In this document: positions 30,459 through 60,796 of the stretch, one piece after another
How the letters are laid out: every line of letters starts with the position of its first letter
How positions within the stretch are numbered: position 1 is the first letter of the stretch
Source: a virus
Direction: 5' to 3' (one strand)
Length of the DNA stretch: 64,000 nucleotides
Virus record (IMG/VR): IMGVR_UViG_3300036770_005682
Location: 1-64,000 of that record
Notes under the pieces: model-generated
What the model saw: only the letters and a program-made list of their open reading frames with translations
Databases searched by the model: none
What the model was told of the DNA's origin: nothing
Position numbers and translations under genes: made by a program

Positions 30459-33400
30459 GTGCGCGATGATGAAATCAAACAAAAGCTAATTGGTGCAGCG
30501 TCACAAAAAGACGCAAAATTAGAAACAGCACCAAAATCGGCCGCTCAAGAGAAAAATAAAAACTCCAAAGAGCCAGAAAAAGACAAACCAGAAAAGCCAT
30601 CAAAGGCAAAATCTGAGTTTGAGCAGTTTCTTATCGATTGGGAACCTGGTGACCCACTGCCATTTTTCCCTCCTGGGAAAATATTAAGGCTTTGCCATCT
30701 AAGCAATAACCCGATGGTTACTGGTTCGGATTATTATTTCGACAACCCTAAAACAACAATCAAGCCTTATAGGCCTGGCCAAAAGTCTATAGAAGAAGAG
30801 TTTATAGAGGTAAAAAACCTTGGGCCGAAACTCAAAGAAGGCCTTTCCTCTCTTCTTGGTATGGTGGCGCGTTCGCGTGGCCTTTGGGTTGACGACAAAA
30901 ACAAACTACGTTGCCCTGCAGGTACTCCAAACGCAAACCAGTTCACCGACATAACTGGGAGCAACTGCTTTATCCCAACGCCAGCAACGGCAGCGCAATC
31001 TGGGGCAAGAGCAGCTAGAAGAGTTCTCGGCACGGCAGAGCAGATGGCTGCAGGAGTAGGACAGAGAGTAGATAGAAGCACGTCCGGTCGTGCTGCGACA
31101 GCGCAGCGGTGGACGACAGGAGATTTGGCATATCTGCAACAGGGCATGGATTTTGGCGGCAGAATGGGCATGCCCGGCAGCAGAGTATCCCCCAGTCAAA
31201 GGACGACGCGCGCCGGCAGGGTATCTCCTGCCACTGGAAGCTCAATTTACTATATTGGTCGGCGTGAGGCCATAGCTCGCGGGAAAGACCTGACACGTGC
31301 AGCACGCGACCTCAGCGATAGATACAAAGTTGGGGCACAAACACAAGCAGCGATACGTCTTCCCAATGGTCAGCTGGTAGGAAACGTTTTGAATAGAGCC
31401 GACTTTATGGCGGCCATGACGTACCTAATGCCAAACGTAGACCCTAACGAGATAGAGGAGTACTACAGCAACGCCATCCCTGGAACGCTCTCGTTGACGG
31501 ATAGAAGAAAGTACCAATCTGGATTTAAAGCGTTCTGGGAAGCTCACATTTTTGAAATGATTGAAAATGCAGAAGCATATAAATTAATCACAAAATTTGA
31601 GATGATGGACGACCTCAATACGGCTATTGAGATTTCAGTCGAACCCTTCGGCCCAAGCCCACTAAGCGGCGGACGAAGAGCAGGAATTGGCGCAACACAA
31701 ATGGCGACACAGGCAAACCTGATGGCCGAAGGCGGCGCACATGTTTCGTTCAAGGTAAGCCCATTCGGTATGTGGCAACAGATGAACGGCGTTGGTCGCA
31801 ACATGGACAGCGATGGGTCTGGGTGGCTTGACTCAATTGAAGGAAGAATGCATTACGTTGCGGTGCACGAAGCTGGGCACACAGTGGATTTTTACAACAA
31901 ACTCAAAGCTTTTGGTCTAGACCCCAATTCAATGCAAAGATACACAGCCCCTAGGCGTGTTGTATCTGTTGGCGGTTCGCCGACGGTTCAGCAAGATAAA
32001 TACAACGGCGCTTGGATTATTGATTGGGCAAATGTTACAAATCCCCAGAATAATCCATTCGTCGACGACATGATAGATGCCGCCAGAAGGTTAAAGAATA
32101 CTTCTTATACAGGTTCAAAATTTAGTGGCAGAAAAATAGACCTACAAAACGATTTGACAACGTTCTACGACAATTTGGCTTGGGCGTTTCAAAACAACAT
32201 TACTCATGATGTGGGCGACTTAGTAATTATGGCTGCTGCGGTGGGAGGGGAATACGCAACAGTCAATGGCGTCGAGACATCAGCAGAATTTTATGCATGG
32301 AGAAGATTGTTCGGCGAACTTAGGGGAAATGCGGCAGCAAGCAGAATGCCAATAGGCAGGGATATTCTCCAAGAGGGTCCTTTTGATTTAACCCCAAGCG
32401 ACATCGATTTACGCACAACAAATGCAAGAAACAGCCCTACCGCAAATCTTCTTACACATTTTGCCGCCGCTTGGGCAGTGCAAGAACGTGACCGGGCTAT
32501 GCAACCAGGTGGGGCCCTAGACCAAATTCAACAGCAGCTTCCACCTGGCGTAGGTTTGCCACAATCAATCATAGATAACTTTGAACAAAACGCTGCTGCG
32601 GATGCTGTCGCTAGATTGAATCAAGTTGGGCAATCATCATTTGGCGTCAGCCCAACGGGGTGGAACATATCTGGGCGCATGGGGAACATGCAGGGACCAA
32701 ACGACCGCCCGCAAACATTGCATGCTCGTAGAGTCAGGAACGCTGTTCGTTCGTACGACGCCAATAAGACAAGAGTAAAAACAAGCTTTAGCATCTCTGG
32801 ACGCATGGGGACACCAGACCCTGTAAAACCGCAAAGACCGCGAGAGCCAGATAATGGTCCATTCACTGGAAAGTTTCTTGATGTTCTTCGTGGCGCTTCC
32901 ACCTGGAAAGAGTTTGCAAGCAAATACCGCAAACAGACGGTTGTATTTTTTGACTACGAAACGACCGGATTTGGTGATGATGGGAACATGCCGGTTCAGA
33001 TAGGCGCGGTAAAAATGCGCGGCGGTAAAGTTGTAGAAAGATTTAACGTTTTTGTTAACCCCGGTATCCCACTTGGCGACTGGGCAAAAAAGAATTTGAA
33101 AAATGATAAAGGCGAGCCACTAACCGATGAGTGGCTAGCATCAAAAGCGGGAATGCGCCAGGCCCATGAACAGCTGCTTGAATTTTTTGGCGAAGATGCG
33201 CTGTTAGGTGGGCAATATACGCCATTTGACCTAGAAGTACTAGAGCGTATTCTCAAACAAGAAGGTATTGATTACAAACCAGCCGGTGTAATTGACTCAA
33301 AAGCGATGGCTGACGAACTACTTCCGCGATGGTCTCCCCAAAATCCCGATGGCCCAACAATGGTTGACCCTAAAACAGGAGAGAAAAAAGCATCAAACTC

Positions 33401-35600
33401 TCTTGGACCATTAGCCGAATATCTAGAGGTCGACCTCGGGGATGGCTGGCATACTGCAGACGCTGACTCTGAGGCATCAGCAATGATTATTGAGAAGATG
33501 CTAGATAGGGCAGCGTCTAAGCAAGACACATCAAAACGGCTATTGGACGTAGACCAAGTCCCACGAATTGTCCAGGAACGTCGCGCGAAATACGAGCGCG
33601 ACATGGCTGATTATCAAAAGGCAAAGGCAGAATACGACCAGCTTATTTCTGGCCGTATGGGTGTTGTGCAGTTTGAAACTGCTAATGGCTCTGTTTACAC
33701 AAGGCAAGCTGACGGCAGATTCCGTCGCAGAAAGAGCGCAGTGCTCGGCACGACCATAGAAGATTCTGACGTTGAGTCCACCTTTGACAACACCGTATTT
33801 GTTAATGACAATGACGCGTATGCAATTATGGCCAAAGGACAACGTGGCCGGATAGTAGACGACAGTGGGAATTTGATTGGTCGCATATATGACGACACTA
33901 ATCTAGATAGTTCTAAATTCATGTCTCTTCGTCGTGATGGAGACGATTTTGATACCGCTTATAGAAAAGCAGGCGGAACGATAAAAGATGAAGCAATCCC
34001 GGCAGCACGCATATACAGGGAACCACAGACCGGTTTAGCCCCAATTGAGTGGAACAACGCAGACAACAAGTACCACGTAGGAAGCAGTGTTTCGTCCGTG
34101 ACAACAGAGCCATCTACGTCTATATCTGGAAGAATGGGAAATCCTGAGCGCGCATCGAAAGCAAAGACCGCACAGGTAAAAGAAGTTTTGTCGACCACAA
34201 AAAGCTCTGTCGGAGCAAACATGAGCGACGAATACGTAGATAATTGGGAATCAATAGAACCGCGACTCAGTGGAGAATTGGGCATTAGAAAGCCACTCAA
34301 AAAGGCAGAAGCTAGAGCCCAAAGCAGCGAAGCAATGAGACGTTTTGGTTCAATGTTGCGAGACTCAATCGGCAACGAGAATAAACCGGCACAGCAGACT
34401 CCATACAGCCCTCTGTTTGCTGGCGTCGAATTAGATTTTATGGCTCACATTGGCTCAATGACTGATGAAGAAATTGAAAACGAATTAGTAGATGCAATGA
34501 CTGAGTTCCATGCTGGACTCGACCCACGCCCTAGGGTGCAAGTATGGCAGGGAGATTTGACACGCATACTGCAACACGGGTATAAAACGACACACAACAT
34601 CACCAGTGACCACAGTTCTAGCCCAATGCGTAAAACGTATGAAGCAGAAATTGGCATTCATCCTGATTTCCCAGACACGATGAGACCAGCTTCAGGATAC
34701 ATGGTTCATTCTGATTGGCTGAATGCTGAAGAAACTATTGCCTCTGCCGCAGTGGAGGCGCTCCCCGGAGCTGATGAAGAAACAAATTTCCCCGAATACA
34801 TGGATAGAAAAGGCATAGAAGACCACCGTGGTCCAGTTAGCGTATACGGAGGAGCGGAAATAATTCTTAGACCGGAGACATCAGGACGCACATACTACGG
34901 GTATGGAGACTCGTTGTCAATGAGATTCACGCCAGTGTCTATAAATTCCACTGACCCAGATGAAATAGTGCGCCCTATGGCCATGGGTGGGACAATAGCC
35001 GGCACAAATATGTTTGATTTGCTTTATGGCAAATGGAAGGGTGACTACTCGGCACTCAGGTATCAGCCCAATGGTAAGAGCGGGCGGCATTATTTCGAAT
35101 CGATGGTTGTCGGCGGATTTGACGCTGCAGACATAGAAGAAGTAGTTATCCCTAATTCTGGAGCCATCCCTGTTGGGGTTTTGTTTGAGCCGGACAACCT
35201 TCCCGAATCAAGAGGAAACATAACAGGCTCCGATTACGACGATATGGCCACAATCCCGGCATTCGCAAAAATGTCTGACGCACAGTATTGGATTGATAAC
35301 GCTGGCTCATCTGAAGAGCAGGCATCAGAAATAGTCAAGATGATAAATGACAAAAAGATGCTGACTGTTAGGGCCAACCCCCAGCTCGCCCGTGGACTAG
35401 CAGCCCAGAAAATTAAAGAGCGCCTGCTTGAAGCTGGCGCAAAACTGACAGTTAGAAACCAGCAGGGGATGGACTATTTTGACCCCCAAAGCTGGGTTGA
35501 CGACCTTAAGGCAAAGACATTAGAAGATGCTATAGAGATGGCTATGAGAAACAAGGTAATGAGGGCCATTAGCCAGGCAATGAAAGAAGCACAGCGATGA
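30459..35600 (+). CDS. Giant polyvalent protein 1: zincin motif, DEDDh exonuclease, DUF3626-like domain
   Basis: A 1713-aa protein, starting GTG. An acidic N-terminus is followed by a Cys-18-Cys element (C152 in RCPAGTPNANQFTD, C170). A zinc-peptidase motif follows (VAVHEAGHTVDF, H470/E471/H474). A 3'-5' exonuclease of DEDDh type has D832 and E834 in FDYETTGF, D924 in YTPFD, and H998 and D1003 in HTADADSE, all catalytic residues present. The C-terminal domain (about 1355-1575) resembles DUF3626 (YGGAEIILRP, YGDSLSM, FESMVVGGFDAADIEEV). ISGRMG elements lie between these units: 32667-32684, 32793-32810, 33645-33662 and 34122-34139, plus FGGRMG at 31152-31169. The exonuclease lies exactly between the second and third ISGRMG. 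It probably enters the host after processing. Confidence 0.75.
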   Translation: MRDDEIKQKLIGAASQKDAKLETAPKSAAQEKNKNSKEPEKDKPEKPSKAKSEFEQFLIDWEPGDPLPFFPPGKILRLCHLSNNPMVTGSDYYFDNPKTTIKPYRPGQKSIEEEFIEVKNLGPKLKEGLSSLLGMVARSRGLWVDDKNKLRCPAGTPNANQFTDITGSNCFIPTPATAAQSGARAARRVLGTAEQMAAGVGQRVDRSTSGRAATAQRWTTGDLAYLQQGMDFGGRMGMPGSRVSPSQRTTRAGRVSPATGSSIYYIGRREAIARGKDLTRAARDLSDRYKVGAQTQAAIRLPNGQLVGNVLNRADFMAAMTYLMPNVDPNEIEEYYSNAIPGTLSLTDRRKYQSGFKAFWEAHIFEMIENAEAYKLITKFEMMDDLNTAIEISVEPFGPSPLSGGRRAGIGATQMATQANLMAEGGAHVSFKVSPFGMWQQMNGVGRNMDSDGSGWLDSIEGRMHYVAVHEAGHTVDFYNKLKAFGLDPNSMQRYTAPRRVVSVGGSPTVQQDKYNGAWIIDWANVTNPQNNPFVDDMIDAARRLKNTSYTGSKFSGRKIDLQNDLTTFYDNLAWAFQNNITHDVGDLVIMAAAVGGEYATVNGVETSAEFYAWRRLFGELRGNAAASRMPIGRDILQEGPFDLTPSDIDLRTTNARNSPTANLLTHFAAAWAVQERDRAMQPGGALDQIQQQLPPGVGLPQSIIDNFEQNAAADAVARLNQVGQSSFGVSPTGWNISGRMGNMQGPNDRPQTLHARRVRNAVRSYDANKTRVKTSFSISGRMGTPDPVKPQRPREPDNGPFTGKFLDVLRGASTWKEFASKYRKQTVVFFDYETTGFGDDGNMPVQIGAVKMRGGKVVERFNVFVNPGIPLGDWAKKNLKNDKGEPLTDEWLASKAGMRQAHEQLLEFFGEDALLGGQYTPFDLEVLERILKQEGIDYKPAGVIDSKAMADELLPRWSPQNPDGPTMVDPKTGEKKASNSLGPLAEYLEVDLGDGWHTADADSEASAMIIEKMLDRAASKQDTSKRLLDVDQVPRIVQERRAKYERDMADYQKAKAEYDQLISGRMGVVQFETANGSVYTRQADGRFRRRKSAVLGTTIEDSDVESTFDNTVFVNDNDAYAIMAKGQRGRIVDDSGNLIGRIYDDTNLDSSKFMSLRRDGDDFDTAYRKAGGTIKDEAIPAARIYREPQTGLAPIEWNNADNKYHVGSSVSSVTTEPSTSISGRMGNPERASKAKTAQVKEVLSTTKSSVGANMSDEYVDNWESIEPRLSGELGIRKPLKKAEARAQSSEAMRRFGSMLRDSIGNENKPAQQTPYSPLFAGVELDFMAHIGSMTDEEIENELVDAMTEFHAGLDPRPRVQVWQGDLTRILQHGYKTTHNITSDHSSSPMRKTYEAEIGIHPDFPDTMRPASGYMVHSDWLNAEETIASAAVEALPGADEETNFPEYMDRKGIEDHRGPVSVYGGAEIILRPETSGRTYYGYGDSLSMRFTPVSINSTDPDEIVRPMAMGGTIAGTNMFDLLYGKWKGDYSALRYQPNGKSGRHYFESMVVGGFDAADIEEVVIPNSGAIPVGVLFEPDNLPESRGNITGSDYDDMATIPAFAKMSDAQYWIDNAGSSEEQASEIVKMINDKKMLTVRANPQLARGLAAQKIKERLLEAGAKLTVRNQQGMDYFDPQSWVDDLKAKTLEDAIEMAMRNKVMRAISQAMKEAQR

Positions 35601-35920
35601 AAAAGTCACTAGTTGGCAAAACTAGAGATGGCGGAAAGTTGTTTTTCGTGTCAGGAGGCCGCAGTACAGGGATATTCCAAATTGGCAGAACCATGACAGA
35701 AATCAACTTCTGGGATTTTGTTGACAAGAGGCCTGACCTAGAAGAGATGATGATAACGCCAATGCAGAAAAGGCTTTGGTCAAGAAATATCTCAGACCCT
35801 CAGTGGGTTGCGCAGTTCATGCCGGCGCATTGGAGAAAGCGGGAAGATGAAAACCCATACAACCAAAAAGTTAGCCAGGCATTAGATACAATAAGAACAA
35901 CGACAGATTTGCTGTTCTAG
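35597..35920 (+). CDS. Small hypothetical protein, coupled to giant gene 1
   Basis: A 107-aa protein whose ATG overlaps the TGA of the preceding giant gene (ATGA). It begins MKKSLVGKTRDGGKLFFVSG and has an aromatic-rich centre (TEINFWDFVDKRPDLEEMMI, PQWVAQFMPAHWRKRE). No family is recognised. Small proteins follow three of the four giant genes in this locus, and translational coupling suggests stoichiometric partners or chaperones; that is inference. Confidence 0.5.
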   Translation: MKKSLVGKTRDGGKLFFVSGGRSTGIFQIGRTMTEINFWDFVDKRPDLEEMMITPMQKRLWSRNISDPQWVAQFMPAHWRKREDENPYNQKVSQALDTIRTTTDLLF

Positions 35921-35948
35921 TATTACGAATGTCGCATAAGGACCGCCA

Positions 35949-36593: not shown

Positions 36594-38628
36594 TTGCTGC
36601 GATGAAAAATCGCTGACACCAATTGTACAAACACGTCATGTAACGCCAGAGTTGGCGCTTACACACGTAAACGCATTCACCCAGCCATTGCCCAAAGATG
36701 GCAATTATAAAAATGCTGTAATGTACAAGTGTGCTATGCAGCGTCGAGGCGGACGAGTAAATCTAGAGGTAAAAGTCGGTTCGGTGACATCGACTAGTCC
36801 TGTTTTGCAGGGGCTTCAATCTGTCGGCTCAATGATTATCCCCGGAGATACGGCACCACTCAGAAGCCCTCTTCGCTCAGGGCTGGCTAGGGCCATAACG
36901 CCTGGCGGCGGCAGAGGAATTAATCCGTTTGCCTATGGTAAACCCAATCGCGGATACAGATGTCCAGAGGGTTACCAATATGGTGGACGCTTTACAGATT
37001 CCAGATTCTCAACATGTGGAAAACAATTGTTTGACCTTCCTGGGATAATTGGAGCAGCAATCGGCACAGCAATTAGACGTTCTGCCGCCGGTGTCGCCAA
37101 TTTTGAACCAAGCGGACGTCGGGTTGGGGCCCTATCCGTCTCTGGTGACATTATCCAAAGTCGCGCACCGCAAATTCCTAAAGTTTCAGCATTAAATAAG
37201 CGCGACAGAAACGCTAATATCGCATCTATTGTTGCTGCTATGGCCGGTGTTGCCGAACCATACAGAAGAATGGTCCGTCGTGATGGTTTCGTTCTTGAGC
37301 CAGTAGTAAGCAACGCAGTACTAAGAACAATCCCAGACAACAGGGATATGGAAGGTGCAACATTTGTTCAGACTGCCCTGGATAGAGCAGTTATAGGGAA
37401 AGATGAACTTGGGTTGCTATCCAATACTGGTGTCCAAAAGCTTGTTTATGTTTTGCCTGGTGGCTCGACGCTAAATATAGAAAAAGCGCGCCCATTAACA
37501 GTTGGCGAACGACGCAAATTGGGCAAGACGGTTAACGTAGCCATTAATGCAGAAAACAATTCTGACCCAGCATCTAGGTTGCGTTTCGTTGCAGAGCAGA
37601 TGGGCGATGCTATTGCCTACAGCGAGTCCTTTAACGACATAAAGGACCCCAATGCAATAATTACAGTGACGTTGCCTGGCACAAAGCGGAAAACTCAACT
37701 GAAGAGATGGGTTTACGAATCGTTTTATAAGCGCAAGCCAGACGTTCCAACCCCTTCAGAAACTGAAATAACAGAAGGCGATTCAGTAGGGCCAAGCGAA
37801 AAAATCGACAACCTTTCGGGGGCAGTGAGGCACCTCAATGCTGGAGGCTCACTAGAAAACATATCCAGCTCATTGCGGGTTGAAGCACTGAGGCGGAGCA
37901 GGCTTTACAAGAGTGGAAAACTCAAAGAGGGCGTAATCCTTCATGAGCGCGCAGATGGGCAAACCGTATTCGAAATACGTCCGAAGCGAGATTTTGAACA
38001 TATTGGGGCTTCGGTTGCTTCTGAGGTGCAACGTTCGTTAGGCCTGAGTGCGCCAAAAGTAAGATTGTCTGGCTCTGGAAATAGGAGAACCTATCTTATA
38101 GGGGAAGCGCAGGATACGCCAATTGCCGGTTCACAAAATAGAGCAAGCGGTTTAGAAAATGTTGCTGTGGAGGATTTGGTTGGACTAGCTGTCGCAGACT
38201 GGCTTTTGGACACTCACGGCAGAACTCCGGCAAACATTTCTCCTATAAATATATCTGGAGCCATGAGGGCGGTTGCATCGATTAACCCGATGTCTGGAGG
38301 AATATCTGCAAGAGGCAATAACAGGCAACGTTTCGACATAGACATGAACGATTTTTTCGGACAAGAATTGCGCGAAATGTACCGTCGCAATTTCGAAAAA
38401 CTAAAACTTGAGCAGAGGCGCAAGGCTCTCAACATGATTGCAACATATATAGAAAGAGCTCAAAATATAGATTTCCCAGAATTGCGCAAAAGGCTGAGTC
38501 TCGACGGTGAAATGTCCGAAGCAGAAAAGCGACACCTTTCTATTATTGAAACACTGTTCAATAGAAGACTAGAAACACTGAGAACATCCAGAGCCGCATT
38601 CATGTCTGCACTAGGATTGCGGCAGTAA
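36571..38628 (+). CDS. Polyvalent-type protein 2 with kinase-like (HipA/PI-kinase-like) fold
   Basis: A 685-aa protein. ATG 36571 is preferred over an upstream TTG; both overlap the previous gene. The N-terminus carries the Cys-18-Cys element (RCPEGYQYGGRFTD, C131 and C149). Near the C-terminus a series resembles the HipA/phosphatidylinositol-kinase fold: EGVILHERADGQTVFEIRP, ASEVQRSLGLSAPKVRLSG, LVGLAVADWLLDTHGRTPAN and FDIDMNDFFG. In active kinases the third motif reads 'NxDRHxGN'; here the Asp is replaced (THGRTPAN), so activity is doubtful. A variant of the linker element, ISGAMR, lies at 38251-38268. The stop overlaps the next start (TAATG). Confidence 0.5.
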   Translation: MKTVSLSNCCDEKSLTPIVQTRHVTPELALTHVNAFTQPLPKDGNYKNAVMYKCAMQRRGGRVNLEVKVGSVTSTSPVLQGLQSVGSMIIPGDTAPLRSPLRSGLARAITPGGGRGINPFAYGKPNRGYRCPEGYQYGGRFTDSRFSTCGKQLFDLPGIIGAAIGTAIRRSAAGVANFEPSGRRVGALSVSGDIIQSRAPQIPKVSALNKRDRNANIASIVAAMAGVAEPYRRMVRRDGFVLEPVVSNAVLRTIPDNRDMEGATFVQTALDRAVIGKDELGLLSNTGVQKLVYVLPGGSTLNIEKARPLTVGERRKLGKTVNVAINAENNSDPASRLRFVAEQMGDAIAYSESFNDIKDPNAIITVTLPGTKRKTQLKRWVYESFYKRKPDVPTPSETEITEGDSVGPSEKIDNLSGAVRHLNAGGSLENISSSLRVEALRRSRLYKSGKLKEGVILHERADGQTVFEIRPKRDFEHIGASVASEVQRSLGLSAPKVRLSGSGNRRTYLIGEAQDTPIAGSQNRASGLENVAVEDLVGLAVADWLLDTHGRTPANISPINISGAMRAVASINPMSGGISARGNNRQRFDIDMNDFFGQELREMYRRNFEKLKLEQRRKALNMIATYIERAQNIDFPELRKRLSLDGEMSEAEKRHLSIIETLFNRRLETLRTSRAAFMSALGLRQ

Positions 38629-46007: not shown

Positions 46008-46393
46008 AAAAAATAGACAAATCAGAGCTGAGTCGTGATGAATTTGCAATGTATTCGCAAAGCAAATTAAAACTCACACAAGCAGTTGAGGAGCTTATCA
46101 ACCTGCTTGGGTATCCGCCATTCGGATTTGATAAAACCGGCAAGTCAAGCGAAATGTATGCCGAAGTCATGGCTGACATAAATGAAACTTTAAACAACAT
46201 TGATGAGGAAGATTTCATTACAGATAGATACGTGCCACTAGCCGAAATAAAGAAAAAATACGCAACAGAAATATCTCAAGCCAAGCGGCTGAGAGATGCA
46301 CATCCAAACATTGGCGCTGCGATTAAAGCATGGTTCGAAGATAATAAATTACAATTAGACGAGTCGATTGCATACCAATATGGCATTGGCTGA
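46004..46393 (+). CDS. Small helical hypothetical protein
   Basis: A 129-aa protein starting within the stop of giant gene 3 (ATGA). It is nearly all helix: LSRDEFAMYSQSKLKLTQAV, EELINLLGYPPFGFDKTG, AEVMADINETLNNIDEEDFI, IKKKYATEISQAKRLRDAHP. No conserved catalytic pattern is visible. It lies between two giant genes. A chaperone-like partner is possible from size, helicity and coupling. Confidence 0.5.
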   Translation: MKKIDKSELSRDEFAMYSQSKLKLTQAVEELINLLGYPPFGFDKTGKSSEMYAEVMADINETLNNIDEEDFITDRYVPLAEIKKKYATEISQAKRLRDAHPNIGAAIKAWFEDNKLQLDESIAYQYGIG

Positions 46394-46395
46394 AC

Positions 46396-50190: not shown

Positions 50191-50411
50191 ACGAACTATT
50201 TGCAGAGGGTATTGGAGGGGGTGCCAAAATGTATAAAACCCATACTACATTTGTTGGAGATAGCCCTATCTACTTCGGGTACATCCTGAAAAATGGACAA
50301 AAAGGTGGAATAATTAATTTGTCTTCCGTTGTTGCCTCCAACCCTTCCTGGAAGGTTGTGGACGAATTTGCTACTACTAACGAACCTCTAGAAAACCCTA
50401 GAAATCAATGA
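50187..50411 (+). CDS. Small hypothetical protein
   Basis: A 74-aa protein if read from the ATGA overlap. An internal ATG at 50229 has a strong GGAGGGGG ribosome site (50214-50221) and would give 60 aa (MYKTHTTFVGDSPIYFGYIL). The fold looks like a short beta protein with GQKGGIINLSSVVAS. It is coupled at its end to the largest gene (ATGA). Function unknown. Confidence 0.5.
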   Translation: MNELFAEGIGGGAKMYKTHTTFVGDSPIYFGYILKNGQKGGIINLSSVVASNPSWKVVDEFATTNEPLENPRNQ

Positions 50412-53400
50412 ACGAAAATAACGATTTACAATTTGATGAAAAGGACATACTTGGCGCTCCACGGATGGTGCGCGTCACGGACCCAGATGTTTTTTCAGAC
50501 CCAGACTCAGCGCGAGTAGCAGCTAGGCGCTTGGGGTGTATTGGAATCAGAAGATACTTAAACCGTTCCGGCGGTGAGTCATGGATGCCGTGTACAAACG
50601 AATCAGACTACAGAAAATACAGCGGCATAGGTGTTTCTGGAAGAAGATTTAGACGTCAACAGCTAGAAAGAGAAATACGTCAAATAACCGGCCGTGGCAA
50701 ACTAGCAAAAAAGACTATCGATTCTGCTGTAGAAACAAAAGCATCCAAGGCGAACAACTACACCAAACCCGAACTGCGCGAACGCCTCAAGCAGCGTATT
50801 ATGGCTGGTTCTGACGGAGGTGCACCTGGTCAGTGGTCTGCGCGCAAGGCACAAATGCTGGCTCAAGCGTACAAAAAAGCTGGCGGTGGATATAAGACTG
50901 GTGGAAAATCAAAAACGCAGCGTTCACTTTCTACATGGACAAAGCAAAACTGGCGAACAAGCGACGGCAAAAAAGCCAGACGAGGAAACTACACAAGGAG
51001 ATACCTCCCAGCTAAAGCGTGGTCAAAACTAACACCAGCGCAAAGAGCTGCAACGAATAAGAAGAAAATAGAAGGCTCAAAACAAGGTGAGCAGTTTGTG
51101 CCTAATACTGCCGCTGCTCGCTCCGCAAGAAAGCGGTCTGTTCGCGGGGCAAAACATTCTGCTTTTTATGAACTTCTTGAAATAAAAAGCATAGAAGGTT
51201 TAATAGAAGTAAAAGCCTTGCCTAGAAGAGCTGCCAGAAGAACACTGCAAACACCAGGCGCACTAAAGCCGCGCCTTAACTCAATGGGGAGAGACCTCAA
51301 CCCCGCTACGGCGCGAAACGCCGACAAAGACCCGTATGTTCTTGAAGGAATCCCAACAATCAACCGTGGGCGAGGCGTTCTTGACCCCACGCCTGGAGGA
51401 AAGCCAAGCCGGTGGGTTCCTCGCGTAAGAAAAGCGCCTTCCAAACCTGAAGTAGCTCCAGAAGCAAAGCCTGCACGTGTTTTACAGAGACAAGCAGAAC
51501 GCCTACCAAAACCACCACAGACACAGCGGCGAGAGTCTTCTTTCGATTGGCTACCTTCAGATTCAGATACATGGACAGAAGAAAACAAGAGACGTCTATT
51601 CGGGTTGCATAAAGAATCAGGGTTTTCTTACTCTGAGTTTGCTAAACGAAATGGTTTATTCGCGGACGACGTACGTGAGTCTGTCGAGACCATAAAGAAC
51701 AAGCGCAAGTCACGGCTCAACGCATTCAAGAAAAATCACCCCAAGTTGATGTCCGTAATTGGTTCGTTTGGTGCCGTGCGAGATGAAGCCATGGAAGCTG
51801 TCGCAGACGGAAAAGTAAAGGATTGGCCTTCCGTTGTGTCATGGGCATTCAAGGACCCCGAACTACGCCGCCAGCGTCTTTCAGACAGAGCAGTTAACGA
51901 CCTTTTCAATAGTGTAAGTAATGGCCTTGACCCCGATGGCAAGTCAGACACTGTTCTCGGATTTATACCCTCTAAAACAAAACCAGGAAAATCTGTTAAA
52001 ACGTTTGCAAAGCGTGGAGCACTCCCCCCAGATTTCACCAGTAGATTCACAACACGCAGAACAGCAGTAGCGCCAGCAAGAAGCATTACATCTATACCAG
52101 AAAGAGCGATACGCCGCCCAGAACGACGCATACAGCGAATTAGTCGCGATATCGAGCGCACGGCGGCAGCATACGAACGTCTTGATGCGATATCGGGTCG
52201 AATGACATCAATATCCGGGCGTATGGCTACGCCCCCTGGCCCAGACTCATCATGGTCGAACCAGCAAAAAGCTCAATGGAAAGCAGAGCAATGGCGGAAA
52301 CGATTCCTATTTGACGAAGCGTTGAATTCAGCAAGAGTCAATCTTTCACCAGAGCTTCAGGCGCACATTGCTAAGTATCCAGATACAGCCACTGCGGCAC
52401 GAGCGATAATGGATATGTCCGACAAGGACCTAGACGCACTGTTCAAGGCTCATAATGATGCACTCAAGGGAGCCAACATAACCATTAAGCCACCTCGTAG
52501 AGATGAGCTCCCTCTTCTGCCGTCCGAAGTGGCCGAAGCAGCCCAAATCAAACGCCCATTGGTTAGAGCATTCCTTGATGAATACAGGAAAATGGCACCG
52601 AACGGAACACTGTCGAGGCTCGATGTCGACACAATGTCAAATGAAGACGTCGAAGAAATGTTCAACCGCTATATCTTGCCGGAAATGGTTGACCCAACAC
52701 GCTTGGATGCAGCAGGTGTTGTAGACGTTGCGCAGAGAATCTCCCAGCCAGGTCAGGAAAATTCCCCTCTCCGTCTGTTGGACAATCTCGCCTACATGGC
52801 CAGCGACGACATGATGAGCCTAGAAGCTCGACGCAGGATTTTAGAAGAACGACTGAATGCTGGTATTGCGGCTGGAACAATGACTCCGGCGCAGCAGCAA
52901 GCTACGCAAAATGCTCTAGACGCAATAGACATGGAACTAGCGAAACTAGTTGCCGATTACGAGGCAGGTCAGCCGCTAGATACATCAATTCCATTTATCC
53001 CTGAAAACATACCTGACCCACGCAAAATGCCTCTCTGGGCTGGGGGACGTCGAGCCCTGGATTTCAACGACCCCGTTACAGCAGAAGATTACGTCATGTT
53101 CCTTCTAGAAAACGACGACGTAGGATTTCACCCTGAGTGGGGCCCCATAACACGCCAGGAATGGAACAACTGGGATGAAGATATAGAACAACGTATACAA
53201 CGAGCAGTCGAAGTGCATTACGAGGGTGGCGAGCTAGAAGCGGAAGATGCAATGAACGCTCTCACGGCCGAATACCAACAATGGTACAACGTTGGCATTG
53301 AAGCAGGCTGGATTGAAGGACAAGAAGAAGAAGAGCCACAACCCGAAAGGCCAATACGAGACGAATTTGGTGTACTCGATGAAGACTGGGTTTGGAATAC

Positions 53401-56400
53401 TGAATTTGGTTCACCCGAAGAGCTCGGCGTCACGGATGACCCATCAACATGGGCTCTACATCCGGACAACGTGCAGGATGATGGTGTAACCCCAATTGAG
53501 TTAGATGAACTTGAGCAGCTCATACTTAAATATGCACCGCGTAAATTTCAAGCCGACTTACTTGAAATGCTCAAGCCAAGTGAATGGACAGACCCTCATA
53601 GTGGCCACATTGACCAGCGCTATGTTGACCTGCCTCCAGAAATGATTGATTATTTTGTTGCTCAGGCTATGGGCACAATGCCACCTATGCCATCCGGTTC
53701 AGGAAATTTACCCACACCGAATATGGGCGGCGTCCAAGGAGATGGAGTAGGAATTTCAGACCCTGGCGGTCCGCGTCTGCGTCGCGGTATACCGTTTATA
53801 CCCAGAAACATAAACTGGGATTCAGCCTTGCGAATGTTCAAACGAATTATCGACAGACAGGGAACTTCTGCATCTGCTCCAGGTTCGTATCGCACCGCAT
53901 CGCTACGTTATGACCCAGCACTTGGTGTATATGAAGACTGGGGACCACTTCAGCTGCAAAACCAGTTTGTTGAAGCGGCTAAAGCAGCAAGAGAACTATA
54001 TGTATCGGGCACTGGGCAAGACTCACGGAAAGCAAGAGAGCAGGTATGGAACCTTCTCCAAGCGGGCAGAACCCCAGAAGAAATAGGACATGAGCTAATA
54101 ATCTTTGGAGCAGACCAGCCAGATACAAATAGGCCGCCACAGCCACTGGATGTATCTGACCTTGTGAAAGCCGCAGCGACAGCGTATGCAGTTGAAAACA
54201 ATCTCCCAGTTGCTGATGTTTCCAAAATGCTTAATGCAAATGCTAAAGCGTTCAATGCTGACGCTACACGCCAAGAAACTCTCCGCCGCTCACAACTGGA
54301 AAGGCTTCGTGCTGATTTAGATAGGCTTCTCAGTGGTCAAAGCATGGACCAAATTATCAAGTCCATTGACGGTTTGATTGAAGAAACAGAACGTAAGAAA
54401 TGGTTTGCTGACCAGGCCTACAGAATTGAGCGCGGCCATGACGCGCGACTACGGAAAGCTATTCTGGACCTAGCGGAAATGTACCCATTGCCTACGGCAC
54501 GCCGCCAAATATTTATGGAGCCAGACGGCTCTATCACTGGTACACCTTCGCGAAACTCAAGGACGTTGTACCAAGAGCCATACACGGGCGAAATATCGGC
54601 TGACGCAAATCTTGGCTGGCCATTAGCTTTTGATGAAGGTTATGACCCCACAAAAATTACTAGGGCTAGGCAGGCTAACAGAATTTACAGATGGTGGCGT
54701 CAGAACTGGGGCTATGTTGACCGCGATGAAAATGGTGAAATAATTCGTCAGTATGTTGGCCCGCTCCAGGGAACGTTAACTGCTCACCAAACTCACGCCA
54801 GAAAATATGGCAACGCGGGTCTATCTGGCACAACAGCATACGCAACCAAAACAGCTGATGCTCGAGTTAGGCAGCTAAAAGAAGTACAAAAACTTCTCAG
54901 TGAAGCCCGCCGCGAAGGCCGCAACTTTAACATCAGTGGATACATGCGTAATGCTGGTCCAAATCTTTATGAGTCATATTCACGCAATGCTGCGCGCTCA
55001 CTAGTTGCTGGGCGTAAAAATAAAAAATCTGCATCAATGCTTCTTGGTTTTGATTCAGAAAACATGCCTGTGACAAGAGCTATGAGGATTGCCTTCACTG
55101 GTGGTTCAGGAAAATTTAGTGATGCCGAAAATATGCATTCTTTTGCATCAATAATGAATCCAGAAAACATCGATTACTTTAATCACCTTTCTCCGGTAGA
55201 AAAAGATTATTTTAGGTCTCTTTATTCTGACGCTGAATTCGTTGTAGCCGTACCTCGAGACGCTGCAGTTTCGGCCAGTCGTTCAATTCGCGGGAAAGAC
55301 GGACTTACACCAGATGAAAAGCTAAGTCAGGCTTTCTATAAAGCAATGTCAGATACACGCCCAACTATTTCTGGACAGATGGGACTTAAGAGAAATCTGT
55401 CAAAAGCAAGGGGAATGGCAAGACGCAACCCTGAGTTGTGGCAGCGCCGCTACATGACTGCGCGTAATAGCTTCAGGATGGCGACGCCATTTAGACGGAC
55501 CACATTGCAAAACTATGACCTAGAACTCAGGCAGGTTGATGACAGCGTGTTTGGGCCAATTTCGGGTCTCTACCTTGTTGATAGAGCAACGGGAAATGTA
55601 ATCGATGGCCCATACAAATCAACGGAATTGATGTCGGCTGTGGATGCAGGCCGTGGCGCCATGAGGAAGGTCAAGGAACAAAATTATCCTCGCCCATGGG
55701 AGCAAATGCCGGAAATACAGAAAGCAATTGCATATGGCGTATCCAACGAAATGCGCGATTTCCTGACTCTCGATGCATATAAGTTGAGCGACATACGCAG
55801 TACGGTAAATGAGAGAGCTCTATCCTTGGATAAGGGCATTCCACAAGAAGCAGCAGATACCGCCGTATTTAGTCGTGACCCAGATACTAGCGACCTAATG
55901 GTTCTTATGATTCAGCGTGAATGGGGACCACATAAGGACGACACGGGCGCATGGGTACTGCCTGGTGGTTTCTCCGACCCAGGTGAAACATCACTAGAAA
56001 CAGCCATGAGAGAGCTCGCAGAAGAGACTGGGATAAAACTTCCAGCAGAGTCTTCCGACCCACAATGGTGGACGACAGAAGGTGCTAAAGCTTTCCGCCT
56101 CAAGCAAATAGGCACAATAGAAGCTCCAGACTGGGATGTGCGATTTACCAAAGGTGTAAAAGTTGGAGGCGCAGCATTGTTTGTATCTCCGGACATAGCG
56201 TTCTCGGCGGGGGATGATGCACGCAGGGCACAATGGATTAGTGTTCGCGACATTGCTGATGGCAAGATACCAGTTGGCTTCGGGCATATAGCTTGGATAA
56301 AGAACGCTTTGGGCCTAGAAAAAGATGACCCAGACGAACTTGATAGCGACCTTACGGACATTGGCTCAAAGCTGGAAAGAATAGAGCGCGCGACTAGAGC

Positions 56401-59400
56401 AAGAAACAAAGAGCTCATAGAAATATCGAATGACTGGCGTAAAAAACTCAACGCAAGTCGCGATAAAGATAATCAAATACCGCTATTCGATGAAAAAAAT
56501 CTTGGCTCCTACTCATCTTGGGAGTTAATACCATCCGATGACCTGATGTACATGGGTGCATTGTCCAAGCTCAAAGTGACAGGAAAACCGCATTCAGATG
56601 CTGACGTAAAAGCAGAAGTGGAGCGAACACGTGAAGTTCGCTTAGGCAGGGTTGGAACGAATTTTGGTCCATCCATATCTGGCCAAATGGGCAATATCGG
56701 ACCGGTCGACATCTACAAAATGCACATATCCGGCAAGACCTCAAACGACATATCTGAATCACTTCCCAGTACAGAAGCAATGCTTAGAGCAACACTGGCT
56801 CTTGGTATGCCGCTCAGTAAAGAGAGCCACAATATTAATCCCCAGGATGAACGAATTTTTCTTTCATCTGCTGTTCGTGGAGAGAATATTGCCGACATCG
56901 CGAGAAGAAACAACATGTCAGTGTCGGAAGCAAACAGTGTCGTCCAGAATTTCGCAAAAATGCGTGAATCTACGGAACCGGCAATCAATAAATCTTTCCG
57001 CAAAGCAATAAAACAAGACAAAAAACTTTCTGGAGCAGAAAAACAAGCCCTTACTCGTCGCCTTAACGGCGCAACAGTCAAAGAAGCGGCCGACTTCCTC
57101 GGTGTAAAGGAAGATGCTTATATACGGCGAGAGGCAAAACTGTTAAACGCCATTCGCGAATCGAATCCTAAAATGTTCAAATCGAACGGAGCCTGGTCAG
57201 ATAACCCACGCGCCCTGGCAGTAGACCAGGAAATATTTATGCGCTTTGTTCATGATGGCCAGCCAGCCTCACGTATAGCAGGCAACATGGGCATGACCGA
57301 AAAGCTTGTGAACAACATTGTCAAGCGCTACGCAAGATGGAGAGACTCCAATGCGCCAATTGAAACAAGCTCTATTAAAAACGCATTGCTCCGTCATTCG
57401 GATTCTTTAACTCCTGGCGAAAATATATTAATGAGTCGCATAGCAGATGGTGAGTCTGTATATGACTTTGCGAAGCGGACTAGAATGCCACGTAAAAGCG
57501 CTGAGCGTATGTATAACTCAGCAATGCTCAAGCTTCATATTGAGTCCGGTGTTGCTCCGAGCTCCAGGGTATTTAGCGCAAACATTTTCAAGGCTGCTCC
57601 AAAGCGTTGGATTTCGCCAATTATGCCAGCAGATATTTTGGCCAAAAAACCAAAAATATCTGGGCGCATGAGTAATAACGACAAAGCTATTTCAACCATC
57701 AAAGAATCTAATGCGTTTAACGAAACGGAACGTGGATTTGTTTCTGCGCCAATGAATGTTTTACGTGAAATGGCTATTGATATACGTCAGGAACTTCGCG
57801 ACCAAGTTGCAGATTTGTCACAAACTTCAGCAGAAATGCATCCGGTGCTCGGAGGGCATGAAGGCGTAAAGAAAATGGCGACACTGGGTGCATATATATC
57901 CAGGACACTAGAAGAGTCTCGTATTTCGGCATTGCTAGACGAATACAAGAGCGCAAAAACAAAATTCATATCGCGCGAACGAAGAGAGTCGGTCGAAAAG
58001 CAGGCAATACTTGACGCAACAAAAAAGCTTTCGGAAGAGCTATGGCTTAAAAAGCAATTTATGGATTTGGCGTCAAACATCTACGACGCTTATGAAAGAG
58101 CATCTTGGCCATGGTTGAAATGGGACAAGTCAAGCCCTGAGTGGAAACGACATTTAGGTGTCTTTGAAACAATGGAAATGTACAAAATCGACACTCCTAG
58201 CGGCAGAAGAAAATACATCAATGATGGCTATTACATGCCGCTGAACCCACGAGAAATGGAAGCATTCCTTGATGCTGTTAATACAAACAACGGCATTACT
58301 GGAAGGATGTCCAACCCGCGCCAATGGGCACGCTCTAGAGACCTATATGAAATCCTTGGTGTTCCAGATACTGCAAGCCCTGAAGATTTAAAGAAAGCTT
58401 TTAGGACAAAATCCAGGGAACTGCATCCAGACGTTAATAAGCGTGCTGACGCAGATGAGCAGTTCAAAGAGCTTGGTTTTGCTTGGGAAACTCTAAGTAA
58501 TTCGAGCCTTAAAGCTCAATACGACTCCTGGAGAACACGCAATGCATCTGGAGCTGCTGCTGACGGCGAAGTAGATAACTTTGAAGAAGATGCCAACTTT
58601 AAAGTCGACGACAACATGTACATTACGGACGAGCGTGGCCGACTATGGCCGCGTCATAATGCAAATAGGGACGACTGGCCGACAGTTCCATTTACAGAAA
58701 ATACAGTGTTCCCGCAGCGCAAATGGGCAGAAAAAGAGTTTGACGAATGGTCGGATTGGACAAGCCACAAAATACAACCATCGAGACCAGCCGGAAGTGC
58801 CCTATGGGGAGAGCGTGGCCCTGGCGACGACATAAGAGATGGTATCGAAACTGACTTTGGTGGAGGAGGCGGTGGGTTCCCAGAGGGCTTCATGTATCGA
58901 GAATCACCAGAGGAATTCGAGAGGCGACTAAGAGATGAATTTGAGAAGCGGCTAAGGGATGAGGGTGCTCAGTTTTGGGATGAGCGGACAATGGGCCCTC
59001 CCCCACGGCCTGATGATTTTCCTGGACCCCCTGGCTTCCCGTCACCTGAAGGGTCTATCAGTGGCAGGATGAGCAATTTCGCCCCACTAGATGACACTAC
59101 GAGGCAGCGTCTCGGTATAGGGGACCTTCCAAGTCTTTACGACCAGCAACAGCTAACTGCGCAATACCCCAAAGACACCGCCATGTTTTATGCTGCTAAG
59201 CCGGGAGAACCAGCAATAGAGGTAACAACAACATTTGGCGGGAAACTAAACCTGGCGCAGCATAGATACGACAACGTATATAGGCCAATTATTGACGCAA
59301 TGATAAATGCAGTCCGCCAAAATAATCGTGGACGTAAAAGGTTCATATCGGTAGGTGGCCCTGCCGGTTCGGGTAAAACAACTGACAGAAAAACTGGCGC

Positions 59401-60796
59401 TCACGGCATACCAACAGTGGAAAATGCCCTCCATGTTGATGCTGACGAGATAAAAACTCTAATACCTGAAGCCAGGGCACTGCATGCCGCAGGAAACCCA
59501 CAATGGGCTGGAGCAGTGCATGAAGAATCAAGAATCATTGCTGACCTTGCTCTTCAAGAAGCAATAGCAAATGGTTTAGACGTTGTATACGACTCAACGG
59601 GTCAGTACAACTCTGGTTTTGGAACGTTGCAGGCTGCACGCAATGCTGGATACGACATTGTTATGCACTACAACACCGCAGAGCCAGACGCCCTTGCCGC
59701 AGCAATTGAAAGCCGCTCGCAGACAGATTCGCGTCGCCTACCATCTGGCTTTAACAATGCTGTTATGCAACGCAATAAGACAATTATGCCTAGTGTTGCT
59801 AAAGCCGCAGATGAGTTCTATTTGTGGGATTCATCTGACATAAAATCACGCAAATTGCTGGCCCAAAAGCAAACTCCACAGTCAATGCTTCAGATAATGG
59901 ACCCGAACGCATACGTTTATGGAAGCTTCGATGAAGCAGGCCAAGCAATAACCAAGGGTGGCAGGCCAACTGCCCGCCTTAACCAGTACAGATATGCGGC
60001 AGAGAGCCCTGAAGGACGAGCAATTCAGGCTTTTGAAAATGGTTCAACAATTGACCAAATATCTGAAACAATGCCCGATATGAAGCGCGACAGAATATTT
60101 GATGTTGTCACCGGAGGGGTAATTGACCCATCACTCCAATACAGGCCGCCAGTATCACCATCACAAAGGCCTGCAATCAACCCAGAAAAGAAGATTGATG
60201 ACTTCGTATCTGATGACAACCTTGAGAATATATGGAACAGCCTGGAAGAAGCACAACAACAAATCGTAAGAAATGTTCTCAAAAAACAACCAGGCGCTAT
60301 GGACGAGTTTGATGATTCGGGCCTACCGATGGACATAATTATCTGGGCCGCGCAAAACAATATCAGTGGGAGAATGGGCGCTGTCTACGATAGAGATAGA
60401 TATAGCGCCGATGATGTGAATAATGCAATTCTTGAGGTTTATGGTCGTGGCCTACAGGCTGCAGAAATGCTCGAAACGCTCAAGAGCGAGTACGACATTT
60501 CAATGGCTCGGGCAGACCTAACAGCACGAATCACCAGACTGAGAAAAGCTGGCAAATTAGACACTTATCGTCTTCCGAATAAAAAGAAAACAGCAAGACG
60601 AATAAAGAAAAGCGCAACTCAAAAATTTGTTGACAAGCGAGATAAGCAAATAGTTCGTTTAGCCAAAACAAGACCCAACCTAACAGCGAACCAGATAGCT
60701 CAAATAATCAACAACATGCCTATTCCTCCGGGAGTAGCAGTGCAGCCAATGAGTGCTAGTTCCGTGTCGCGGATAGTAAACAGCAAAGGCAAATAA
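50408..60796 (+). CDS. Giant polyvalent protein 5: DUF5872-like, Nudix, HTH array, J domain, zeta-type kinase
   Basis: A 3462-aa protein from one 10.4-kb frame. C44 and C62 form a variant Cys-18-Cys element. Residues about 116-243 resemble DUF5872 (YTKPELRERLKQRIMAG). A Nudix hydrolase has its box at G1854-I1876 (GGFSDPGE, MRELAEETG). A tandem HTH array spans 2100-2376. The J domain has HPD at 2673-2675. The P-loop kinase of zeta-toxin type has GGPAGSGKT at 2983-2991, VDADE and VVYDSTGQ. A C-terminal HTH follows. Linker elements lie at 52190, 52211, 55367, 56675, 57656, 58295, 59057 and 60362 (18 bases each), plus ISGYMR at 54932. Nudix, HTH array, J domain, kinase and C-terminus each fall in a separate interval. 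Residues 608-1650 are not assigned. Confidence 0.75.
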   Translation: MNENNDLQFDEKDILGAPRMVRVTDPDVFSDPDSARVAARRLGCIGIRRYLNRSGGESWMPCTNESDYRKYSGIGVSGRRFRRQQLEREIRQITGRGKLAKKTIDSAVETKASKANNYTKPELRERLKQRIMAGSDGGAPGQWSARKAQMLAQAYKKAGGGYKTGGKSKTQRSLSTWTKQNWRTSDGKKARRGNYTRRYLPAKAWSKLTPAQRAATNKKKIEGSKQGEQFVPNTAAARSARKRSVRGAKHSAFYELLEIKSIEGLIEVKALPRRAARRTLQTPGALKPRLNSMGRDLNPATARNADKDPYVLEGIPTINRGRGVLDPTPGGKPSRWVPRVRKAPSKPEVAPEAKPARVLQRQAERLPKPPQTQRRESSFDWLPSDSDTWTEENKRRLFGLHKESGFSYSEFAKRNGLFADDVRESVETIKNKRKSRLNAFKKNHPKLMSVIGSFGAVRDEAMEAVADGKVKDWPSVVSWAFKDPELRRQRLSDRAVNDLFNSVSNGLDPDGKSDTVLGFIPSKTKPGKSVKTFAKRGALPPDFTSRFTTRRTAVAPARSITSIPERAIRRPERRIQRISRDIERTAAAYERLDAISGRMTSISGRMATPPGPDSSWSNQQKAQWKAEQWRKRFLFDEALNSARVNLSPELQAHIAKYPDTATAARAIMDMSDKDLDALFKAHNDALKGANITIKPPRRDELPLLPSEVAEAAQIKRPLVRAFLDEYRKMAPNGTLSRLDVDTMSNEDVEEMFNRYILPEMVDPTRLDAAGVVDVAQRISQPGQENSPLRLLDNLAYMASDDMMSLEARRRILEERLNAGIAAGTMTPAQQQATQNALDAIDMELAKLVADYEAGQPLDTSIPFIPENIPDPRKMPLWAGGRRALDFNDPVTAEDYVMFLLENDDVGFHPEWGPITRQEWNNWDEDIEQRIQRAVEVHYEGGELEAEDAMNALTAEYQQWYNVGIEAGWIEGQEEEEPQPERPIRDEFGVLDEDWVWNTEFGSPEELGVTDDPSTWALHPDNVQDDGVTPIELDELEQLILKYAPRKFQADLLEMLKPSEWTDPHSGHIDQRYVDLPPEMIDYFVAQAMGTMPPMPSGSGNLPTPNMGGVQGDGVGISDPGGPRLRRGIPFIPRNINWDSALRMFKRIIDRQGTSASAPGSYRTASLRYDPALGVYEDWGPLQLQNQFVEAAKAARELYVSGTGQDSRKAREQVWNLLQAGRTPEEIGHELIIFGADQPDTNRPPQPLDVSDLVKAAATAYAVENNLPVADVSKMLNANAKAFNADATRQETLRRSQLERLRADLDRLLSGQSMDQIIKSIDGLIEETERKKWFADQAYRIERGHDARLRKAILDLAEMYPLPTARRQIFMEPDGSITGTPSRNSRTLYQEPYTGEISADANLGWPLAFDEGYDPTKITRARQANRIYRWWRQNWGYVDRDENGEIIRQYVGPLQGTLTAHQTHARKYGNAGLSGTTAYATKTADARVRQLKEVQKLLSEARREGRNFNISGYMRNAGPNLYESYSRNAARSLVAGRKNKKSASMLLGFDSENMPVTRAMRIAFTGGSGKFSDAENMHSFASIMNPENIDYFNHLSPVEKDYFRSLYSDAEFVVAVPRDAAVSASRSIRGKDGLTPDEKLSQAFYKAMSDTRPTISGQMGLKRNLSKARGMARRNPELWQRRYMTARNSFRMATPFRRTTLQNYDLELRQVDDSVFGPISGLYLVDRATGNVIDGPYKSTELMSAVDAGRGAMRKVKEQNYPRPWEQMPEIQKAIAYGVSNEMRDFLTLDAYKLSDIRSTVNERALSLDKGIPQEAADTAVFSRDPDTSDLMVLMIQREWGPHKDDTGAWVLPGGFSDPGETSLETAMRELAEETGIKLPAESSDPQWWTTEGAKAFRLKQIGTIEAPDWDVRFTKGVKVGGAALFVSPDIAFSAGDDARRAQWISVRDIADGKIPVGFGHIAWIKNALGLEKDDPDELDSDLTDIGSKLERIERATRARNKELIEISNDWRKKLNASRDKDNQIPLFDEKNLGSYSSWELIPSDDLMYMGALSKLKVTGKPHSDADVKAEVERTREVRLGRVGTNFGPSISGQMGNIGPVDIYKMHISGKTSNDISESLPSTEAMLRATLALGMPLSKESHNINPQDERIFLSSAVRGENIADIARRNNMSVSEANSVVQNFAKMRESTEPAINKSFRKAIKQDKKLSGAEKQALTRRLNGATVKEAADFLGVKEDAYIRREAKLLNAIRESNPKMFKSNGAWSDNPRALAVDQEIFMRFVHDGQPASRIAGNMGMTEKLVNNIVKRYARWRDSNAPIETSSIKNALLRHSDSLTPGENILMSRIADGESVYDFAKRTRMPRKSAERMYNSAMLKLHIESGVAPSSRVFSANIFKAAPKRWISPIMPADILAKKPKISGRMSNNDKAISTIKESNAFNETERGFVSAPMNVLREMAIDIRQELRDQVADLSQTSAEMHPVLGGHEGVKKMATLGAYISRTLEESRISALLDEYKSAKTKFISRERRESVEKQAILDATKKLSEELWLKKQFMDLASNIYDAYERASWPWLKWDKSSPEWKRHLGVFETMEMYKIDTPSGRRKYINDGYYMPLNPREMEAFLDAVNTNNGITGRMSNPRQWARSRDLYEILGVPDTASPEDLKKAFRTKSRELHPDVNKRADADEQFKELGFAWETLSNSSLKAQYDSWRTRNASGAAADGEVDNFEEDANFKVDDNMYITDERGRLWPRHNANRDDWPTVPFTENTVFPQRKWAEKEFDEWSDWTSHKIQPSRPAGSALWGERGPGDDIRDGIETDFGGGGGGFPEGFMYRESPEEFERRLRDEFEKRLRDEGAQFWDERTMGPPPRPDDFPGPPGFPSPEGSISGRMSNFAPLDDTTRQRLGIGDLPSLYDQQQLTAQYPKDTAMFYAAKPGEPAIEVTTTFGGKLNLAQHRYDNVYRPIIDAMINAVRQNNRGRKRFISVGGPAGSGKTTDRKTGAHGIPTVENALHVDADEIKTLIPEARALHAAGNPQWAGAVHEESRIIADLALQEAIANGLDVVYDSTGQYNSGFGTLQAARNAGYDIVMHYNTAEPDALAAAIESRSQTDSRRLPSGFNNAVMQRNKTIMPSVAKAADEFYLWDSSDIKSRKLLAQKQTPQSMLQIMDPNAYVYGSFDEAGQAITKGGRPTARLNQYRYAAESPEGRAIQAFENGSTIDQISETMPDMKRDRIFDVVTGGVIDPSLQYRPPVSPSQRPAINPEKKIDDFVSDDNLENIWNSLEEAQQQIVRNVLKKQPGAMDEFDDSGLPMDIIIWAAQNNISGRMGAVYDRDRYSADDVNNAILEVYGRGLQAAEMLETLKSEYDISMARADLTARITRLRKAGKLDTYRLPNKKKTARRIKKSATQKFVDKRDKQIVRLAKTRPNLTANQIAQIINNMPIPPGVAVQPMSASSVSRIVNSKGK
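56693..57655 (+). repeat. Region of the giant gene encoding a tandem helix-turn-helix array
   Basis: Four sigma-region-4-like units start near residues 2147, 2211, 2273 and 2337, a period of 62-64 residues, with a weaker unit near 2100. Each has a hydrophobic helix, a G at the turn (RGENIADIARRNNMS, NGATVKEAADFLGV, DGQPASRIAGNMGM, DGESVYDFAKRTRM) and a recognition-helix segment. The nucleotide sequence is not repetitive. Confidence 0.7.

Follow-up and report, generated by a model that had tools for sequence, protein, structure and literature searches.

How the giant multidomain proteins of some phages are divided into working parts is the question raised by a 64,000-nucleotide stretch of viral DNA (the window), which forms positions 1 to 64,000 of the 137,811-bp IMG/VR virus record IMGVR_UViG_3300036770_005682. 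In this window an S78 prohead protease gene is followed by four giant open reading frames (ORFs) and then by the gene of an HK97-type major capsid protein (MCP). The giants share a short recurrent peptide, I-[ST]-G-[RQ]-M-[GAST], hereafter the element. The paper describing polyvalent phage proteins proposes that embedded peptidases process them and likens these proteins to RNA-virus polyproteins (PMC5512222). Homologues, permutation tests and structure models lend strong support to a role of the element as a marker of module borders. We lean towards the further view that the elements are processing sites of virion-borne polyvalent polyproteins, with the S78 head protease as the likely cutter.

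The element occurs 16 times, always in frame within the four giants (4 copies in the 1713-residue protein, 1 in the 2459-, 3 in the 1264- and 8 in the 3462-residue protein), and no other frame has one. Shuffling these four proteins 2000 times gave a mean of 0.0155 copies and a maximum of 1, and a search of the remaining 133 ORFs of the record for the strict pattern returned none. The DNA sequences of the copies differ in 16 of 16 cases, hence it is the peptide and not the DNA that is under selection. The giants, their elements and two variant sites are listed below by position in the window, with residue (aa) numbers and handles for related viral contigs, of which G003 is the most distant full relative of the clade carrying ISGRM-type elements (31-41% identity in the four giants).

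30459-35600 (+), giant protein 1, 1713 aa, zincin motif HEAGH at aa 470, RNase_T exonuclease
32667-32684 (+), ISGRMG, aa 737; ISGHMG in G003; predicted local distance difference test (pLDDT) <50 in the AlphaFold (AF2) model
32793-32810 (+), ISGRMG, aa 779, left border of the exonuclease module; GSKSTT in G032 and GMRSQ in G035 at the homologous border
33645-33662 (+), ISGRMG, aa 1063, right border of the exonuclease module; GASKSTT in G032, GMRSR in G035
34122-34139 (+), ISGRMG, aa 1222, insertion breakpoint in L053
38251-38268 (+), variant ISGAMR, aa 564 of a 688-aa protein
38628-46007 (+), giant protein 2, 2459 aa
41226-41243 (+), ISGRMG, aa 867; ISGRMS in G001; ITGQMS at aa 808 in G003, out of register in the global alignment
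46396-50190 (+), giant protein 3, 1264 aa, C-terminal match to DUF3626
46702-46719 (+), ISGRMG, aa 103
47206-47223 (+), ISGRMA, aa 271
48604-48621 (+), ISGRMG, aa 737
50408-60796 (+), giant protein 4, 3462 aa, NUDIX, helix-turn-helix (HTH), DnaJ and Zeta-type kinase
52190-52207 (+), ISGRMT, aa 595, in tandem with the 52211 copy; absent in G003
52211-52228 (+), ISGRMA, aa 602
54932-54949 (+), variant ISGYMR, aa 1509; ISGFMR in G001, VSGFMR in G003
55367-55384 (+), ISGQMG, aa 1654
56675-56692 (+), ISGQMG, aa 2090
57656-57673 (+), ISGRMS, aa 2417
58295-58312 (+), ITGRMS, aa 2630, where the J-domain module starts
59057-59074 (+), ISGRMS, aa 2884
60362-60379 (+), ISGRMG, aa 3319

An earlier note on this DNA had given the same 16 start positions, which proved exact, and its view that free codon variation places selection on the peptide is borne out by the differing copies. 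It had also named three variants, all of which exist. The ISGYMR and ISGAMR sites recur at the same place in relatives, the latter as ISGAMR or ISGSMR in the nearer relative. FGGRMG, at 31152, is not kept in the distant relative and is probably a chance match.

Every Pfam domain is confined to one interval between elements. RNase_T (829-1009) lies between 779 and 1063 of the 1713-residue protein. In the 3462-residue protein, NUDIX (1819-1883) falls between 1654 and 2090, weak HTH matches between 2090 and 2417, DnaJ (2645-2706) between 2630 and 2884, and the Zeta_toxin kinase (2972-3131) between 2884 and 3319. These coordinates agree with the earlier note, which had placed exonuclease, Nudix, HTH array, J domain and kinase each in a separate interval. 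In a set of 14 chains that covers four element classes, 0 of 107 elements lie in a Pfam domain, against 8.9 expected, and none of 2000 rotations gave a count as low. The same note held that its proposal would fall if the element lay inside folded domains or was unconserved; elements fall outside Pfam domains, and the element is conserved, as set out below, which leaves the proposal standing. AlphaFold models of two 1200-residue pieces, built from 7-8 sequences and of modest quality, place all eight elements tested in segments with pLDDT <50, between better-ordered blocks. A fold search re-found only the DnaQ-like exonuclease.

Modules are permuted, inserted or deleted among relatives, with ends often at elements. 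The exonuclease module (aa 779-1063) has moved in L051, where it starts at aa 1791 with an element at 1792, and in L040, where it starts at aa 2274 with an element at 2275. At element 3319, ~500 residues (two modules) of G001 and G003 are missing from the window, and the gap spans element to element. Of 280 alignment breakpoints over all pairs of the ISGRM clade, 44 are no more than 15 residues away from an element, compared with 14.7 expected; part of this excess would arise if elements do no more than lie in linkers.

The element forms a conserved island within variable linkers in relatives down to ~36% identity. In the comparison with G003, 17 of 18 sites retain the glycine and 16 of 18 the methionine; the 20-residue flanks have a mean identity of 0.30 and are often gapped. 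Position 4 varies (R, K, Q, H, A, N); M is almost invariant at position 5, and position 6 holds a small residue. Where position 4 is non-basic, an R often occupies position 6 ahead of one more residue (ISGAMRA, ISGYMRN, ISGSMRA, ISGFMRS, VSGFMRG, VSGAMRT), as would be expected if the cut moves by one residue.

Other clades carry other peptides at homologous borders. De novo k-mer searches of the gene block in related phages identified the following recurrent peptides, all of which, like the element itself, fit [GS]-x-[M/K/R]-[S/G/A/T].

GMRSR, G035, 37 copies
GSKSTT, G032, 30 copies
STRS, G016, 39 copies
SSRS[ST]R, G025, 9 copies
SMRSxR, L085
GGMSS, L109

At the left border of the exonuclease module, homologues at 40% identity read ISGRMGTPDP in the window, IAGSKSTTKP in G032 and TGMRSQSGPK in G035, and the right border reads ISGRMGVV, SGASKSTTRS and GGMRSRTATR, respectively. 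Exchanges in register were also observed in closer pairs, namely between L085 and G016 (SMRSIRERIPL vs. STRSIRERIPL), between G032 and G016 (GSKSRTDRYS vs. STRSRTDTYL) and in a third example (SMRSRRGKNRKKWN vs. STRSKRGKNRKKWN). The elements proper to both clades coincide at homologous alignment ends 46 times (mean 7.8 and maximum 21 in 500 rotations), although these are not independent events because related genomes recur. In a tree of S78 domains, with a small labelled sample, element classes follow protease clades; this concordance is expected from descent and does not identify the enzyme. One further giant of G032 (L131:5986-15231), of 3082 aa, lies downstream of the MCP on the opposite strand and has eight GSKS-type elements, some paired 33 residues apart (GSKSTT...GSKSRTDRY).

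The window also contains the following genes and sites that bear on a possible cutter.

10020-10037 (-), ISGKMT, in a Gly-rich linker of the tape measure protein
23882-26167 (+), portal-MuF fusion, upstream of the giant-protein block
26255-28624 (+), S78 prohead protease with DUF6321 and a C-terminal region, candidate processing enzyme (Pfam PF04586, E 4.6e-11; PF19846, E 6e-30)
27227-27244 (+), ASGRMG, in the S78 protease protein, past the S78 and DUF6321 domains
61070-62461 (+), HK97-type MCP, with a conserved FKSLxGGRNGANM segment and without the clade-specific element

In the explanation we favour, the four giants would be polyvalent polyproteins whose modules are independent of one another (exonuclease, NUDIX, DNA-binding, J domain, kinase and others). 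They would probably be packaged in the virion and delivered into the bacterial host. The chain would be cut between a long side chain (M in the element, R or K in its variants and in the other clades) and the small residue that follows (G, S, A or T), thereby releasing single-module effectors. The S78 head protease, encoded just upstream and itself bearing the element, would cut the chains. The repeats, their place at borders and in linkers, their conservation, the change of class among relatives and the shuffling of modules are observed; packaging, cleavage, the exact bond and the cutter are what we infer. Of the earlier note's proposal that the element is a processing site, the role at module borders has gained support from homologues, permutations and models, while cleavage is its most plausible extension.

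Several observations point to S78. The giants lie between the portal and MCP genes and do follow an S78 prohead protease gene, as the earlier note had stated, with PF04586 directly upstream; the protein also matches phrog_80, head maturation protease. Its ASGRMG, missed in that note along with the tape measure site, is conserved in relatives as SSGRMG, IAGRMG, ITGKMG and VTGRMG, and nearly all ISGRM-clade relatives have an element in the protease protein just past its enzymatic part, as expected for self-release. The protease of the window is a separate gene and is not fused to the giants. In G035, however, the S78 domain is fused in frame to an 18-element chain, and in many relatives (L087, L103, L105, L073, L081, L095 and others) a chain that ranges from ~1600 to over 4000 residues begins with S78, reaching 4433 aa in G025. 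The HK97 capsid cut between K103 and S104, deduced by aligning PDB chains 3qpr and 1ohg and comparing their lengths, has a long P1 and a small P1' residue, and the conserved FK-S of the window's MCP fits the same rule as a candidate site. As S78 is fused to the polyprotein in relatives, its protein bears the element and the proposed bond fits the HK97 cut, S78 is the most likely cutter and is favoured over a zincin.

More tentatively, a wide tailed-phage group may package a small number of giant polyproteins, from which the head protease would cut dozens of injected effectors, each genome having 15-40 such sites. The site would be re-specified wholesale between clades (ISGRM/G, GMR/S, GSK/S, STR/S and GGM/S, the slash marking the bond) while the protease domain and capsid protein are still ~70% identical or more. 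If true, such re-specification amounts to a coordinated rewrite of many sites at once.

A number of findings weigh against processing by the head protease. The tape measure proteins of G032, G035 and the window bear their clade's element although tails are put together outside the head, and a protease confined to the head would not account for this; the window's ISGKMT is absent in the close relative G001. The MCP is without the clade-specific element in all clades examined and keeps a constant segment while the element switches, having in common with the other chains a loose [KRM]-S pair only and no shared recurrent motif. Not every long stretch is divided, since the 2459-residue protein has a single element, and the sites at 52190 and 52211, 7 residues apart, would be redundant as cuts. 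The [MKR]/[small] rule is loose and was derived post hoc from the same data, and several related gene-block loci have no detectable element. The first two of these findings would be accounted for if the element is indeed a processing site but is cut by some other enzyme, either in the capsid or once ejection has taken place. This could be a host protease or a zincin-like metallopeptidase carried by the giants themselves. HExxH motifs were seen in the giants of all clades examined, although in those of the window this motif, without a Pfam match, is the only sign of a hub domain. Giants encoded by this block in G032 and G035 contain MPTase-PolyVal and ArdcN, which identifies the chains of these relatives as polyvalent proteins, and zincin processing of such proteins is proposed by Iyer et al. 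2017 (PMC5512222). Nonetheless, it is S78 and not a zincin that is fused at the chain N-terminus and whose protein bears the element, and the [KRM]/small rule agrees with the HK97 cut. Another cutter is thus considered unlikely.

The tandem pair at 52190 and 52211 would suit the avidity of a repeated docking peptide, of encapsulin cargo-loading or scaffold-binding type, that stays uncut and tethers linkers to the inner capsid wall or an ejection chaperone. This would be consistent with a short multicopy motif in the linkers of presumed head cargo, and HK97-fold shells are described in the encapsulin literature as binding short cargo peptides. The idea is weakened because the small single-module proteins of the same block, which may or may not be packaged, are without the element, as are the homologues of the 688-residue protein in G032 and G035. 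Furthermore, copies sit at module borders and not at chain ends, and classes such as STRS have no hydrophobic anchor. Docking therefore appears rather unlikely. If the element were just a passive flexible linker, or a scar left by the shuffling of modules, it would be found where it is, in variable linkers of low model confidence and at breakpoints. Its sequence, however, is far too specific for this (I, G and M are conserved), persists where overall identity is 36% and is replaced throughout from one clade to another. A scar acting through DNA identity is also incompatible with the differing DNA copies, and this whole explanation is highly improbable.

Three further candidates were rejected. 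A DNA-level repeat or recombination site is ruled out as all 16 window copies differ in DNA. Internal translation starts at the ATG of R-M are ruled out on inspection of the sequences, as the codons upstream of the ATG vary, there is no constant ribosome-binding sequence, and GSKSTT and STRS have no Met. An MCP carrying the same element as a delta-domain site was not found in the window or its relatives.

The whole gene block is common to the window and related viral contigs, which are those of uncultivated phages. A scan of viral contigs with a protease alignment gave 80 relatives, and rescanning these contigs with an alignment of the 1264-residue protein gave no further ones. A search of genome contigs yielded only three stray contigs of metagenome-assembled genomes, with no host information. 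The element was not found in giants of cultured actinophages (Streptomyces phage Gilgamesh gp48, Actinomycetia phage DSL-LC01 and Brevibacterium phage Cantare). Gilgamesh (L022, MN234216) encodes a 4624-aa protein at the corresponding place, with portal on one side and MCP on the other, in which no recurrent element was detected.

Other features of the block's proteins were recorded alongside the element. The S78 protease protein has a perfect 50-residue Pro-rich repeat at aa 561 and 622 (RMPETEEPIELPDEIPVPEP...; window 27935-28084 and 28118-28267), and the G001 protease has two matching copies of its own that are unlike those of the window, a pattern that suggests concerted evolution. The C-terminal part of the 1264-residue protein (window ~49400-49970) matches DUF3626 (PF12294) below the cut-off, and also matches a protein encoded beside the portal gene of DSL-LC01. 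The N-terminal block of the 3462-residue protein (aa 98-325, window ~50700-51380) is DUF6321-like (WTKQNWRTSDGK), and its homologue is a separate gene near the MCP in L116, L132 and L127 (48-62% identity). A short module, RCPxxTPxGGQFTDxxGxxC, lies near the N-terminus of the 1713-, 688- and 2459-residue proteins (window 36958-36993, 39174-39209 and ~30900-30980) and is possibly a virion-targeting signal. An acidic module with the look of a calcium loop, NPATARDADKDxxVLEGxPTINxGRG, occurs in the 1264- and 3462-residue proteins (window 46615-46647 and ~51290-51400), and related stretches (DADSDGIVFEGKP / DGDEDGIVFEGTP) lie early in the giants of other clades.

In kind, both polyvalent proteins and the processing of ejection proteins by head proteases are known; what is new is the identification of recurrent, clade-specific border sites. 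No published report of such sites was found in the open-access literature, a coverage that left out subscription papers and preprints. The elements supply exact candidate bonds across a whole phage group, a means to define module borders in giant phage proteins for which databases offer few matches, and an example of dozens of sites per genome changing together between clades.

The polyvalent proteins of Iyer et al. 2017 are likewise giant multidomain chains, encoded beside head genes, whose domains include exonuclease, NUDIX, kinase and zincin (PMC5512222). The window giants match this description with RNase_T, NUDIX, DnaJ and Zeta_toxin, and relatives have more domains. The excerpts of that paper differ in that no processing site was found described there and zincins are favoured, not S78, whereas the phages of the window have recurrent clade-specific border peptides. 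In the phiKZ-like phage SPN3US, the prohead protease gp245 recognises a short motif, with a preference for Ser at P1', in ejection proteins and in itself, and cuts there (PMC10052503). This is a precedent for a head protease that acts on packaged, ejected proteins, as proposed for the window phage. The SPN3US cuts, however, mostly remove N-terminal propeptides and have another specificity, while here up to ~18 sites per chain would separate functional modules.

HK97 gp4 and gp5 are alike in combining what we take to be an S78-type protease (gp4) with an HK97-fold MCP and the cut between K103 and S104; HK97 is not known to have giant polyprotein substrates. Encapsulin cargo-loading peptides are also short and bind the inside of an HK97-fold shell. 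They are mostly terminal and single-copy, unlike the elements, which are internal, multicopy and at module borders. RNA-virus polyproteins resemble the giants in having modules in one chain and recurrent short border sites; their protease within the chain has a parallel in several relatives, such as the S78 fusion of G035, and in the window the protease is a separate gene that bears the element. As in viral polyproteins, the recurrent site lies at module borders and none was seen inside domains. Here, in contrast, the chains belong to a DNA phage, would be structural or ejected effectors, and are paired with an unrelated protease. If cleavage does take place, DNA phages would have their own counterpart of RNA-virus polyproteins, processed by a head protease.
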